DNA from: Verrucomicrobiales bacterium
Lineage (GTDB): Bacteria > Verrucomicrobiota > Verrucomicrobiia > Verrucomicrobiales > DEV007
NCBI GenBank assembly: GCA_029213065.1
Contig: JARGPH010000007.1
Location: forward strand, 9,355-73,354
DNA: 64,000 nt
Direction of reading: 5' to 3'
A program made the position numbers and the translations under genes. Below, piece by piece: positions 18,054 to 24,331 of this stretch. The notes beneath the pieces are model-generated. The model worked only from the letters and a program-made list of their open reading frames with translations, had not been told where the DNA came from and did not search any database. Position 1 is the stretch's first letter; every line of letters begins with the position of its first letter.

Positions 18054-18668
18054 ATGTCGTTCATTCATTCCAATTCCCGGGTATCGAATAACTGCAGCGG
18101 ATTCTCTCTGCTGGAGTTGATGGTCGTGTTGGGAGTGATGGGATTGCTCCTCGCGATGAGTGTCCCGGCGTTACTGACCGCGCGCTCGGTGAGCCTCGAT
18201 ACGGCGGCGCGCAATGCAGGGGCTTTCTTTGAAGTGGCCCGGTCCCGGGCGGTGACACTGGGACGTCCTGTCCGGGTCATGATTCATGATAAGCCGGGGA
18301 ATTCGGGCTATTTCAGGCAGAAGTTGATTCGGGCCGTGGGAGCCGGGAACGGGACTTGGGAGGTGGAGGGGACTCCGCTTCTTTTGCCGCCCGATGTGGT
18401 TTTTGACGCGAGTTCACCGGACGCTGCGACCCTGAGGATGGAGTATGCGGTCGGCCGGGAGACGCCGCATTTCTGGCGCTACTATGAGATCGGGGCGGAT
18501 GGCACGATGGGGGAACGGGGGAGAAATTTTGTGATCGCTTCGGGTAATGCGGCAGGAGGGCGCATTTTCATTCCCGACCCCGATGCGGTGCGGGGTTTCC
18601 GGATCAGCAGGAATGCACGCCTTCTTTACTTCCGGAAGGCGGATGATATTGAGGAGGTTCTGAAGTGA
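18054..18668 (+). CDS. Verru_Chthon cassette protein D (pseudopilin-like)
   Basis: 204 residues. A type IV pilin-like N-terminus is clear: GFSLLELMVVLGVMGLLLAM with the conserved Glu at +5, so a prepilin peptidase could cleave after the glycine. The remainder (about 160 residues) is a GspH-like globular domain with RNARLLYFRK near the end. It matches the family described as Verru_Chthon cassette protein D, seen in arrays in Verrucomicrobium and Chthoniobacter. First gene of the set D-B-C-A; its stop overlaps the next start by one base. Function in the family is unknown. Confidence 0.85.
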   Translation: MSFIHSNSRVSNNCSGFSLLELMVVLGVMGLLLAMSVPALLTARSVSLDTAARNAGAFFEVARSRAVTLGRPVRVMIHDKPGNSGYFRQKLIRAVGAGNGTWEVEGTPLLLPPDVVFDASSPDAATLRMEYAVGRETPHFWRYYEIGADGTMGERGRNFVIASGNAAGGRIFIPDPDAVRGFRISRNARLLYFRKADDIEEVLK

Positions 18669-19255
18669 TGCGTCAGGAAACCGGACCTGTCGAAAGGGCT
18701 TCGATGATGATAGAGGCAGTGCTTGCTGTCGGGATCGTCAGTATCGGGGCTTTGAGTATCATTGGAATGCTGGGGCAATCGAACACCTTCTCCAGTGAGA
18801 ATCGGAACAGGGAGGAGGCGATTGAGAATCTCGGATTTGTGAAGTCGAAGCTTCAGGAGATTCCTTTTGAAGAGGCTTATGAGATGTTGAAGGGTCAGAC
18901 AGCGCCGTATTACTCGTATCAGTACTCGGCGAATCCTGAATCGCTGCGCAGTGATGGATCGGCTGAGCCGGAGCGCGGGGAGGGGAGCCGTCTCCGGAGA
19001 GGTTTCCGTCGTGGCGATGACCCGCTTTTGAAGAAGGATCTCGAATTTCGTGAAGGAGGTGTGTTCCGAATACGGATTTCACAGTTGCTTGCCAATGGCG
19101 CGGCGCCGGCTCCCCTCCCGCCACCTGATAAGTTGTTGTCACCCGGATTCAGTATGGCGCTGGAGTTTTTTATTGATCCCCTGCCCGGTGAAAATGAGGG
19201 GGAGTGGGTGGAAGTGAACCGGGTTCTCAGGGTGCCGGTGTCGATTACAAGATGA
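18668..19255 (+). CDS. Verru_Chthon cassette protein B (pseudopilin-like)
   Basis: 195 residues from the ATG at 18668 (TGATG overlap with gene D; a GTG one codon upstream is also possible). The N-terminus ASMMIEAVLAVGIVSIGALSI keeps the hydrophobic helix and Glu of pseudopilins but lacks a classic Gly-Phe cleavage site. A charged middle ([16 protein letters not shown]) and a beta-rich end follow. The architecture resembles PilV/GspI-type minor pilins. It overlaps the next gene by ATGA at 19252. Confidence 0.8.
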   Translation: MRQETGPVERASMMIEAVLAVGIVSIGALSIIGMLGQSNTFSSENRNREEAIENLGFVKSKLQEIPFEEAYEMLKGQTAPYYSYQYSANPESLRSDGSAEPERGEGSRLRRGFRRGDDPLLKKDLEFREGGVFRIRISQLLANGAAPAPLPPPDKLLSPGFSMALEFFIDPLPGENEGEWVEVNRVLRVPVSITR

Positions 19256-20070
19256 GGAATCCCCAAGGTAAGAATTGGTGTTCAGTGAGGGCGACAACTC
19301 TGATCGAGTTGCTCGTCTCGGTCGCGGTGACGATGTCCGTCATGGTCCTTCTCGCGATGATCGTTACAACGGTTTCGAATCAATGGACGCGCGGTTCTTC
19401 GCGCTTTTTGCTGAATACTGAGGCGGGTGTTGCGCTCGATTACCTGGCTCAGGATTTGAGATCAGTTGTCAGAAAAGGGGATGGTTCGCAGTGGCTTAGA
19501 ATCAGGAAGCCGAACCCGGGCGGGGTGAATCAGGGTTTTCTGATTCTCCTTCTGGCTCAACCGCTGGACGGGCAGGGGAAGGTGGTGACAATTGCCTACC
19601 GGCTCGGGGTTCACGATCCGATGGGTGGCAATGAGGATCGCCCGGTGATGTATCGATGTGTCTTTTCCCCGGAGGACACGATTGAGCATCTCGGTGCGGA
19701 GGATCTTGAGGCGGCTTGGTACACCCGGCTGGATGAGGTCCTCGATGATGACTGGTTTCTTGCTGAGAAGGTGATCGAAGCGAATCTTACGTTTCATCTC
19801 AGGGATTCGGACGGGAAAAGTGTCATCGTTGAGTGCCTGAATAATGCGAGTGGCGGAGAGGCTTTGGTGGTTGATGGAAAACCGGTCGATGTCGCCGGAA
19901 CGACGTTGGAAAGCGTCACGGTGAGGCTCCTTTTGTTGGATGAGACCGGGCTGGAAGTGTTGCAGAAGGGAACCCTGCCAATACCTGAAATTCTTACCCG
20001 CTACGGGAATGAGTATGTGGAGGAAGTGAAGTTCCCGGGGACAATCGGTGAGATCAAGTATGATATTTAA
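19252..20070 (+). CDS. Verru_Chthon cassette protein C (pseudopilin-like)
   Basis: 272 residues from the ATG at 19252, chosen because it overlaps the stop of gene B as ATGA. Near the N-terminus is the pseudopilin helix TTLIELLVSVAVTMSVMVLLA with the conserved Glu. The following 220 residues are like PilW/GspJ-type minor pilins (WTRGSSRFLLNTEAGVALDYLAQDLRSVVR). The C-terminal part contains beta strands and YGNEYVEEVKFPG. Its end overlaps the start of gene A by 11 nt. Confidence 0.8.
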   Translation: MRNPQGKNWCSVRATTLIELLVSVAVTMSVMVLLAMIVTTVSNQWTRGSSRFLLNTEAGVALDYLAQDLRSVVRKGDGSQWLRIRKPNPGGVNQGFLILLLAQPLDGQGKVVTIAYRLGVHDPMGGNEDRPVMYRCVFSPEDTIEHLGAEDLEAAWYTRLDEVLDDDWFLAEKVIEANLTFHLRDSDGKSVIVECLNNASGGEALVVDGKPVDVAGTTLESVTVRLLLLDETGLEVLQKGTLPIPEILTRYGNEYVEEVKFPGTIGEIKYDI

Positions 20071-23000
20071 TCGACATTGTCAGTCGCGCAGGGGATTTGC
20101 GCTGATCACCACTTTGCTATTGTTGGTGTTGGCGGTCATGCTCGTGGTCGCTCTCCTGAGCCTCCGGATGAAGGAGGGTAGTAAGGTTTCAAGTGATCGC
20201 GAGCTGGCGGCGGCGCGGGCCAATGCCCTCTATGCGCTGGATCTCGCGATGGGTGAATTGCAGCGCTACGCGGGACCGGATCAGGCGGTCTCGGGATCGG
20301 CTTCGCTTCTTGAGGAGAGCGCTGTTCCCAATCCTCATTGGACCGGTATTTGGAGCTCGACTGAGGCGGGGCGATCGAACGAATCCGTCGGCGCTTTTCT
20401 GGTTAGTGGAAATGAGAAATTCGATCTCAATGAAACCACCGTTGCCTATCCGGCGGGGTATCTGGATCCCCTTAATCCGCTCGATCCGGGTGATCCCGAT
20501 GTCCTCGAGCTTGTCAAAGAGACGACGAATTCCCCGGCGCGTCAGGTTCTTGTGGAAAGGCAGGATGTTCCCGCCGATGCGGATGCGGTGCGGAGGGGGC
20601 ACTACGCCTACTGGGTTGGAGATGAGGGCGTGAAGGCTCGCGTCGATATAAGGGATCCTTTTCGGAACGATTCATCTGACGAGGCGAAATCGAACCGTTT
20701 GCGACTTGCCCAGCGGGTGGGGAGCGAGGCTGTGCTCCCTGATCTCAATACCAACGATGAACGCCTCGACTCGGTCACGAGTCTGGAGGAGATCGAGTTG
20801 TTGCAGGCTTCCGGTGCGGCGCCGGGGAGTGATGTCGCGCGTGAGAAACTTCACGATTTGACGACGTTGAGCACCGGTCTTTTGACGGATCTTAGGAAGG
20901 GCGGGTTAAAGCAGGATCTGACTTTGGCTTTCGAAAATGATGAAGTTTTCGAACGTCTTTTCGGAGCTGAGAAGACCGGGGTGATATCAACCACCGCAGT
21001 GTCGAAGGAAGACGTCTATAAACTGGATCTTTCGAGGTTGAATGATTTCTACCTCGTGCCTGAAATTCTTGAGACAGCGACGAAGGAGTATCCTTCTGAA
21101 GGTGCCTGGGTCGGTGGTCCGAACTGGGGCAATCTGCGTGAGTATTTCCTGCTCTACAGAGAGCCGGAGACGCATTTTCCGTTTCTTCCCCATCCCCGCT
21201 GTGCGGTTCGGATGCGCCAGTATGCTTTCAATCCTTACAAGCATGCCAACGGGGCCAGCGCGAAGTATGATTACTACCAGCGCAACAGTCCTGTCTCACC
21301 GGTTCTGTCGCGGGCGCAAATGAATGTGCGGCTGCGATCACGAAAGGTGGGGACTACCGGGGCGGGTGACGATGAAGAGGACCTCTATGAAATTGATCTC
21401 GAGATCCAACCCGTCATCGGAATCTGGAATCCTCACAATATCGCATTCACTGATAGAATTTACCGCTTTGACTGGGAAATTTCGGTGTATCTGGATTTGA
21501 AAGTTAACGGGACTACTCGCCGGTATGATCTCTATCGGTTGTGGAACAATGATACCCCCTGGTTTTCGCTGAATACTCAGCAGGTGAACCTTCAACCGGG
21601 TGAGATGCGGTTGTTCACGATCGATACGCGTCGGTCACTTTCGCAGCGAGTGACGCTCGTTCCGAGGTGGAGTGACAACGGGGCTTTTCGAATCGCTTTG
21701 CCGGAGACGCCACCTGCCTACAGGAAGGCTGCGGGCCCGGCCCTTCGAGTTACCGGAAGTCAATCCGTTGAGATCGAAGAGGTGGGTCTCGTCGCCCCTC
21801 CTGCGAGTGAGGGCTGGTCCGGGGCGCTTAAAGATCTCCAGAAGCACAATACTTTCATGGCGATCAAGTATGGTGAGAGCGTTGGTTCCGCATCCAGTGC
21901 GGTCGAGAGCTCCAGTGTGAGAATGAATAACCTCTGGAAAGCGGATGATGAGTCCGGTCCGGCAGTGGTGCCGGCGCCGGGAGATGCGATCCCCCCGTTT
22001 CAAGCGGCACGCCATCTCGAGGAACCTGCACATCTTGCCGCGTGGTCCTACACGATGAGGACAAGTCGGGAGGATGATCTCGGGCATCGCAATTTTATCG
22101 ACAGCAACGTCCGCGCGATCGCGGCGAGCTCAAGGTGGGATGGCTCCGTTGAAGACCGGGGCTGGCGTTCGATGGGGTGGCTTAATGACGGGGCCGAAAG
22201 GGCGCTTCTTCCTCCGGGGAATGTTGAACCGGAGGCGGATGGCCTCGACCGGTATCGTGCTTTCGGGGGGAATGCGATCGGAGCGGGAGGTCAGAATCAT
22301 CTCATCCTCTTCGACGTGCCACGCGAACCTCTCGTCAGTGTCGGGCAATTGCAGCATGCCAATATCGGGCGTTACAATAACGAGCCCTCTTTCGTGGTCG
22401 GAAATTCTTATCAGAATGTCAGGATACCGCTCGATCAAACTGAAGTGCGTGATTTTGCGGATCACGATGACAATGGGATTGGATACGAAACCAAAAAGCT
22501 TGATGTCTTTGATTTGTCCTATCTCGTGAACGAAGTGCTCTGGGATTCCTGGTTCTTCTCGACCTTTGAGTATTCTGACGTGGTGCAGCAGTTCGCTGAT
22601 CTCAAGGCCGCCCAGCCTCTCCCTAATTCCCGTTACCGATTGTACGATCCTGACGAAAGCCTCGAGGGGGACGACTTCGGGGCTGCGGTAGGTGACGATG
22701 AAGCATACCGGGTGCTGGGAGCGAGGTTTCTTGTCGAGGGGGCTTTCAATGTGAACTCCACCTCGGTTGAAGCGTGGAAAGCGGTGCTGCACTCGATGAG
22801 CGATTTGGTGATACCTGAATATGATGTGCACACCGGAAGTTATTTAAAAGAGGAGAGGGGAAAGGTTGTCTTCAGCCGGTTTGTGCGTCCGTTTGGTGGA
22901 GCGTTCCATTCGAGTCAAAGTCCATCGGACGAGTCCTATTGGAGGGGTTACCGGGAGCTTGATTCCAATGCGATTGATGAGTTGGCGGTAGAGATCGTGC

Positions 23001-23587
23001 GTCAGGTGAAAATGAGGGGGCCGTTTCGCTCGATGGCGGATTTTGTGAATCGATCTCTCGTCGATTTGGATTCGTCGTCAGCTCCGCAAGATGACACCCG
23101 GCTCTCGGGTGCCCTGCAGTCTGCTTTGGATCGGGTCGATTCGATCAACGCCGCGATCGATCCCGGAATTGCCTCACCGGTGGCTCCGATCCCGGATCCG
23201 GGAAATGAGTTCCACGATGTTCCGGAAGCAGCTACGCAGGGAACCGGATTTCCGGGATACCTGCTGCAGGGTGATATTCTGCAGGCTCTCGCCCCTACCT
23301 TGACGGCACGTTCTGACACCTTTCGGATTCGCACGTATGGGGACAGAGTGGTAACGCCGGGAAGCAGTGGAGGTGTCGAGGTGCCCACCGCGAGAGTTTG
23401 GTGTGAAGCGATCGTGCAGCGTCTCCCGGAACCGCTTGAGCCGCTTGATGCGGGTATTTCTGAGGCACGAAATTTGATCCAATCGCCGGAGGATGTGGAT
23501 AGTTTTTACACAGCGAAAGGGCGGACCTATTTTGGAAGACGCTTTCGTGTTATTTCTTTCCGTTGGCTGAGAGAGGAGGATCTCTAG
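20060..23587 (+). CDS. Verru_Chthon cassette protein A (very large pseudopilin-like protein)
   Basis: 1175 residues from the ATG at 20060; a GTG at 20048 would add four codons. The N-terminus RRGFALITTLLLLVLAVMLVVALLSL resembles a GspK/PilX-type pseudopilin helix with a Gly-Phe junction but no +5 Glu. A second helix, AAARANALYALDLAMGELQRYAG, is the usual follow-up. The rest is one very large exported region of beta-rich character, and I recognise no enzymatic motif. Length and order match cassette protein A. Pseudopilins normally have 100-350 residues, so a member over 1100 suggests a structural tip or adhesin role; this is inference. Confidence 0.85.
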   Translation: MIFNRHCQSRRGFALITTLLLLVLAVMLVVALLSLRMKEGSKVSSDRELAAARANALYALDLAMGELQRYAGPDQAVSGSASLLEESAVPNPHWTGIWSSTEAGRSNESVGAFLVSGNEKFDLNETTVAYPAGYLDPLNPLDPGDPDVLELVKETTNSPARQVLVERQDVPADADAVRRGHYAYWVGDEGVKARVDIRDPFRNDSSDEAKSNRLRLAQRVGSEAVLPDLNTNDERLDSVTSLEEIELLQASGAAPGSDVAREKLHDLTTLSTGLLTDLRKGGLKQDLTLAFENDEVFERLFGAEKTGVISTTAVSKEDVYKLDLSRLNDFYLVPEILETATKEYPSEGAWVGGPNWGNLREYFLLYREPETHFPFLPHPRCAVRMRQYAFNPYKHANGASAKYDYYQRNSPVSPVLSRAQMNVRLRSRKVGTTGAGDDEEDLYEIDLEIQPVIGIWNPHNIAFTDRIYRFDWEISVYLDLKVNGTTRRYDLYRLWNNDTPWFSLNTQQVNLQPGEMRLFTIDTRRSLSQRVTLVPRWSDNGAFRIALPETPPAYRKAAGPALRVTGSQSVEIEEVGLVAPPASEGWSGALKDLQKHNTFMAIKYGESVGSASSAVESSSVRMNNLWKADDESGPAVVPAPGDAIPPFQAARHLEEPAHLAAWSYTMRTSREDDLGHRNFIDSNVRAIAASSRWDGSVEDRGWRSMGWLNDGAERALLPPGNVEPEADGLDRYRAFGGNAIGAGGQNHLILFDVPREPLVSVGQLQHANIGRYNNEPSFVVGNSYQNVRIPLDQTEVRDFADHDDNGIGYETKKLDVFDLSYLVNEVLWDSWFFSTFEYSDVVQQFADLKAAQPLPNSRYRLYDPDESLEGDDFGAAVGDDEAYRVLGARFLVEGAFNVNSTSVEAWKAVLHSMSDLVIPEYDVHTGSYLKEERGKVVFSRFVRPFGGAFHSSQSPSDESYWRGYRELDSNAIDELAVEIVRQVKMRGPFRSMADFVNRSLVDLDSSSAPQDDTRLSGALQSALDRVDSINAAIDPGIASPVAPIPDPGNEFHDVPEAATQGTGFPGYLLQGDILQALAPTLTARSDTFRIRTYGDRVVTPGSSGGVEVPTARVWCEAIVQRLPEPLEPLDAGISEARNLIQSPEDVDSFYTAKGRTYFGRRFRVISFRWLREEDL

Positions 23588-23608
23588 TTTCTTTGTTTTA
23601 ATTGTTCG

Positions 23609-24331
23609 ATGTCCCCGTTTCAAAAAATTTCCAAGATAGTGCGACTTCTCGTCGTGATCCTCGCGGTTGCCCTCTCAAGTCACGCGCAGGAGCAGGACGG
23701 CTTCGTGAAGGCGGAGATTCTGACTTTATCTCTCTCCGGCGTCGTTTCAGATCTTCACTACCTATCGAAAGAGGGGCTTGCCCGGACAACGGTTTACAGC
23801 CGCGGGTTCGGCATTCCGATTGAATACGAAGGACCGCAGGAAATGATCTTTTTCCGCCCGACCGCGAATCCGGAGGGGTTCTCCGGTGGCGACAGGAAGA
23901 TCGTTTCCCGCGTTACTCTGCCTTCCGGGGTGAGCCGTGTCCTTCTCCTCTTTGAGAAAATTGAGGGAGCTGATGATGAGGCCTACAGGATCATTCCGAT
24001 TAACAATGATCCGGGAAAAATGCCGGCCGGTGCCTATCGCATCCTCAATCTTTCCACGGTTCCGTTTGTGGGAAAGATAGGAGGTAGTCGCATTAATCTG
24101 GCGCAGGGAAAAACCACGATCGTTTCTGATGGCGGAGATGAGAACGGGAATTTCGAAGTGCGTTTCTTCTCAACCGAAAAGGGAAAGGAAGGTGTCGTCT
24201 ACAGCTCGGTGTGGCAGACGAAAAAGACGAGGCGAACGACGGTCTTTCTTCTCGCCTCCACCTCGGATCGACAGGATCTCGAGGTGCGGAAATTTATCGA
24301 GCCCTTCGTCGAGAAGAAAAAGAAGAAGTGA
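23609..24331 (+). CDS. Exported protein linked to the Verru_Chthon cassette, unknown
   Basis: 240 residues, 21 nt after gene A on the same strand. Residues 1-27 are a signal peptide ending SHAQ. The mature protein is beta-rich (IIPINNDPGKMPAGAYRILNLST, FVGKIGG) and ends in a run of lysines (EKKKKK). No pilin helix is present, so it is a soluble or surface protein rather than a pseudopilin. I cannot name a family. The AYRILNLS-type segment resembles small beta-sandwich domains. Its position suggests it works with, or is exported by, the cassette. Confidence 0.7.
   Translation: MSPFQKISKIVRLLVVILAVALSSHAQEQDGFVKAEILTLSLSGVVSDLHYLSKEGLARTTVYSRGFGIPIEYEGPQEMIFFRPTANPEGFSGGDRKIVSRVTLPSGVSRVLLLFEKIEGADDEAYRIIPINNDPGKMPAGAYRILNLSTVPFVGKIGGSRINLAQGKTTIVSDGGDENGNFEVRFFSTEKGKEGVVYSSVWQTKKTRRTTVFLLASTSDRQDLEVRKFIEPFVEKKKKK

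Follow-up and report, generated by a model that had tools for sequence, protein, structure and literature searches.

Genes of the locus

The DNA analysed here, in the following called the window, is a stretch of 64,000 nucleotides from the genome of a Verrucomicrobiales bacterium. It contains five genes, designated D, B, C, A and E, in this order on the forward strand. D (18054..18668) and B (18668..19255) join at TGATG, with the ATG of B at 18668, and B and C (19252..20070) at ATGA, with the ATG of C at 19252. C and A (20060..23587) overlap by 11 nt, A starting with the ATG at 20060, and E (23609..24331) follows A after a gap of 21 nt. These reading frames, overlaps and coordinates had been proposed in an initial annotation and were confirmed on the sequence. 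The order D-B-C-A-E was found again in five other genomes (G007, G061, G062, G064 and G052) besides the window genome G000, and since it is identical in all of them, the layout is far from chance.

Prepilin-like N-termini had been ascribed to the first four gene products, and a prepilin-type site is indeed present in each of them, for example G^FSLLE in D (204 aa) and A^SMMIE in B, with glutamate at position +5 in D, B and C only. Among homologues, Glu+5 together with a prepilin-type signal was found in six of six D, six of six B and all 14 C proteins. The gene order D-B-C-A is that of gspH-I-J-K in E. coli K-12. The best model for D was GspH (TIGR01708, 7.4e-9), below its cut-off, and B gave weak matches to PilV/ComGE. 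In hhalign comparisons with E. coli Gsp proteins, whose scores derive mostly from the N-terminal helix, D aligned best to GspG/GspH, B to GspI, with GspJ nearly tied in local mode, and C to GspJ. Profile searches against PDB sequences matched D to pilin helices, while those with A, B, C and E yielded nothing useful, apart from C weakly matching a pilin helix. Sequence and gene order identify D, B and C as predicted GspH-, GspI- and GspJ-type subunits, and the GspH/I/J/K-like layout suggested earlier is thus backed by gene order, Glu+5 pattern, profile comparison and the fold of A.

The A protein, 1175 aa in length, contains the prepilin-type site, but Glu+5 is absent from all 38 homologues inspected. 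Absence of this residue is expected in the GspK family. An AlphaFold model of A (pLDDT 77.9, pTM 0.84) was similar to GspK of the GspK-I-J complex (3ci0_K; Z 11.3, rmsd 3.2, 237 of 280 residues aligned), and the alignment spans residues 45-1176 of the model, reaching the C-terminus of A. The next structural match had a Z of 4.3, a plain Foldseek search with the model returned no significant match, and the GspK model NF037980 scored 24.9 bits against an equivalog cut-off of 130. Weaker structural matches cover a beta-rich part at about residues 415-700, which is therefore probably an insertion relative to GspK. By sequence, gene order and modelled fold, A is identified as a putative tip subunit of the GspK type that owes its great size to the insertion of beta-rich domains. 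The earlier proposal of an outsized tip protein is in agreement with this fold, with the missing Glu+5 and with the last position of A in the H-I-J-K order.

The fifth gene had been described as specifying an exported, beta-rich protein ending in lysines, and E (240 aa) has a signal peptide, is rich in beta structure and ends in KKKKK. Two beta-sandwich domains were predicted by AlphaFold (pLDDT 91.7). Structural similarity was seen between E and the PepT2 ectodomain (Z 13.9), and between the second domain of E and both AlgF (Z about 8) and transthyretin-like folds; as these are common folds, they give no indication of function. E of the window matched no Pfam family at E<=0.1 and no PilY1-type domain, and its homologues gave stray single-member matches only. 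Whether relatives keep the fifth gene beside A had been set beforehand as a test of the proposed complex. Eight genomes contain 69 copies of A, of which 61 are followed on the same strand by an E homologue within 420 nt, and the seed E profile matched 57 of the 61 downstream exported reading frames at 2.9e-5 or better (GTDB sample, window included). At four loci (L112, L113, L115 and L127), E lies divergently upstream of A. By this conservation, E is identified as a predicted exported partner encoded beside A. As suggested earlier, E may be a substrate or surface factor. It is not always needed, because in one genome, G082, no E could be detected although A is present three times. Two of the A copies in G082 without E are arranged head to head (L195:5587-12731). 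In other genomes, some E matches contain a stop codon.

From these features, the locus probably specifies a minor-pseudopilin tip complex of the type II secretion or type IV pilus kind, with a shared base, interchangeable giant GspK-E tips and the machinery encoded elsewhere.

Secretion and pilus machinery

Neither a secretion ATPase nor a secretin had been noticed near the genes. For the region itself this holds, but the same contig encodes GspE-GspE-GspF-GspG about 93 kb away, with no H-I-J-K genes adjoining. At G000:C73:125-131 kb (L054), the ATPases are two tandem GspE-type proteins with MshEN domains, followed by GspF and a GspG-type pseudopilin. The genome has one prepilin peptidase. It also encodes a secretin of the Amuc_1098 family (999 bits, cut-off 750) and a PilM of the Amuc_1101 family just under the cut-off (605 versus 650 bits). 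The pilus locus to which these two belong (L060, G000:C1:101-108 kb) resembles Amuc_1098-1102 and is adjoined by genes for dephospho-CoA kinase and Rho, and this synteny matches that given for the Akkermansiaceae MUL2 pilus in excerpts of the corresponding report (PMC13174399). A canonical Verru_Chthon cassette is located some 15 kb away from this locus. Accordingly, a core of ATPase, platform protein, secretin and prepilin peptidase is present in the genome, none of it adjacent to D-B-C-A-E, which bears out the earlier suggestion of shared machinery.

The closest known counterparts are the minor pseudopilins GspH-I-J-K of type II secretion systems (enterotoxigenic E. coli, 3ci0; XcpUVWX, PMC6211770), which share gene order, Glu+5 pattern, overlapping genes and the GspK fold with D-B-C-A. 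In contrast to these, A is about four times larger, an additional exported partner is encoded, the genes lie away from type II core genes and the NCBIfam equivalog cut-offs are missed. The locus could nevertheless specify the tip of a classical type II pseudopilus, with A recognizing exported enzymes and E serving as periplasmic chaperone or substrate. The H-I-J-K order and the fold of A would fit, as would the GspE/F/G genes on the same contig and the exported sulfatases and glycoside hydrolases among the neighbours of A-E pairs. Against it, neither GspC/L/M nor a GspD-type gene was observed in the vicinity of GspE/F/G, the secretin passing its curated cut-off belongs to the Amuc_1098 type IV pilus family, and conservation of one substrate for every tip throughout the order would be unexpected. 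This explanation is considered rather unlikely.

Verru_Chthon cassettes and distribution of the genes

D, B, C and A had initially been labelled a complete Verru_Chthon cassette. Membership was judged by the curated NCBIfam cut-offs of TIGR02596, TIGR02598, TIGR02599 and TIGR02600, and all four proteins scored below them: D with 31.1 bits (cut-off 70; TIGR02596, E 2.3e-7), B with 11.6 (51.4), C with 28.3 (256.5; TIGR02599, E 1e-6) and A with 17.5 (332.3), the matches being confined mainly to the N-terminal part. TIGR02600 was detected at E<=0.01 in 25 of 38 A homologues (best 3.4e-7). The label was thereby not confirmed. Two cassettes passing the cut-offs are present elsewhere in the same genome, with the orders B-C-D-A (C1) and A-B-C-D (C4), both different from that in the window. 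The two kinds have in common four prepilin-like proteins including a giant A, with homologous N-terminal helices, whereas E is found only in the window set. In the literature searched, no paper naming Verru_Chthon was found. A third, divergent D-B-C-A set (L011, G000:C74:119-126 kb) is followed by an exported gene seemingly unrelated to E; it differs from E by eye, was missed by the E-family profile and had no NCBIfam match, and was rejected as an E homologue.

D, B and C are homologous to their canonical counterparts (hhalign 96-98 percent), and both cassette types coexist in the genome, as would be the case if D-B-C-A were a divergent, slowly eroding Verru_Chthon paralogue with the same function. 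This explanation is very unlikely, as A aligns with canonical A over about 67 N-terminal columns only, has its own partner E, is 59-62 percent identical over its whole length among relatives and is present in 232 of the 387 genomes surveyed in the order.

In the family of the window organism, strong A-type matches were obtained in seven of 75 genomes (G000, G007, G052, G061, G062, G063 and G064), and strong C-type matches in the same seven only; G038 gave one marginal A-type match (4.9e-4). D-B-C lie beside A in the six relatives. Five of these show all five genes in order, and in G063 the locus is divided between two contigs, the first carrying D-B-C and the larger part of A, the second carrying E. 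Over the 387 genomes, in searches scoring few candidates per genome, both A and C types were found in 213, A only in 19, C only in eight and neither in 147 (phi 0.86, uncorrected for phylogeny).

Outside this family a different arrangement prevails. Searches with window-type profiles detected stand-alone triads in seven genomes: six single-contig genomes (G162, G079, G146, G218, G252 and G082) have one stand-alone D-B-C triad each, and in G148 the triad is accompanied by another copy of C, located immediately after an A-E pair. Alongside the triads, the other families tested contain three to 20 A copies per genome, scattered and mostly in A-E pairs; in G218 and G252, one pair is close to the triad. 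A and E together form a widespread module of two genes that usually has no D-B-C next to it, and D-B-C is often a stand-alone triad. Variations on this theme include three tandem A-E pairs (L080:167-12065), three D-like genes ahead of B-C-A (L126 and L141) and, in G148, the additional GspJ-type C gene directly behind an A-E pair, which is unaccompanied by D and B (L186:7193-12282).

That most A-E copies lack D-B-C beside them could point to a free-standing surface adhesin pair, the prepilin-type helix being only a membrane anchor that never enters a filament, but this is very unlikely given that A co-occurs with one D-B-C type, shares an operon with it in the window family and is GspK-like to its C-terminus.

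A proposed shared base with alternative tips

The interpretation with the best support is a pseudopilus base used in common, fitted with a giant tip of the GspK type and its partner E. After cleavage by prepilin peptidase, D, B, C and A would assemble in the inner membrane and prime a pseudopilus, the GspG-type major subunit being polymerized by a GspE/GspF-type motor. The filament would leave the cell through a secretin encoded elsewhere, most likely in the Amuc_1098-type locus, and E may fold with, cap or extend A, in the periplasm or at the surface. Relatives generally retain a single D-B-C triad alongside numerous A-E pairs. From these copy numbers and the gene order, A-E is most likely an interchangeable tip module, which would determine what is bound or moved by the filament. 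As two true Verru_Chthon cassettes and the C74 set are also present in the window genome, the machinery may be the object of competition between several tip sets.

Alternative tips have a precedent in Myxococcus xanthus, in which three complete minor-pilin/PilY1 clusters operate on one machine (PMC7541494). There, as here, FimU-PilV-PilW-PilX-type subunits are combined with a non-pilin exported partner, and several sets are present per machine. Unlike PilY1, E has only about 240 aa and no Pfam match, and it is usually the tip subunit with its partner that is multiplied rather than the entire set. A likewise expanded family in Verrucomicrobiota is formed by the 67 PulG-like pseudopilins of Verruconatronum alginivorum, one of which sits in an alginate-induced gene cluster (PMC13274419); these are PulG-like proteins and need not correspond to A or E.

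With this arrangement, A and E, two large co-conserved families with no Pfam match and no NCBIfam cut-off passed, would be placed in a known machine. If the tips are interchangeable, it would also be apparent how a single filament can act on many targets. The nature of these targets is the weakest step of the model: the best guess is glycans or large secreted polymers, and glycan capture or polymer export as a function is a guess. The type IV-like pilus of Akkermansiaceae MUL2 is reported to mediate attachment to fucose-rich glycans, and tip subunits are not named in the excerpts of that report (PMC13174399). We infer a link to D-B-C-A-E, and interchangeable tips would then be candidate glycan-binding tips for this pilus. 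A far-reaching version of the model, put forward tentatively, is a type IV-like glycan-capture filament of Verrucomicrobiota with a single H-I-J base that accepts any one of as many as about twenty giant GspK-E tips, each suited to a different polysaccharide or secreted polymer. The window would then contain the rare complete operon from which the relation of the parts can be read.

The surroundings of A-E pairs were inspected with regard to neighbouring genes. At three loci of G252 (L210, L211 and L212), giant PATR-repeat proteins adjoin A-E pairs. A regular association with such autotransporter-like proteins was rejected, since they account for three of 68 neighbours versus two of 70 in random G252 regions, which is no enrichment. 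In a hand-picked sample with no control, GH1, GH16, sulfatases, polysaccharide lyases and sugar regulators were among the neighbours; because of the way this sample was chosen, the signal from carbohydrate-active enzymes and sulfatases is taken as a hint only. In G252, sulfatases and glycoside hydrolases were found, in small numbers, beside A-E pairs and were absent among the families shown for random regions.
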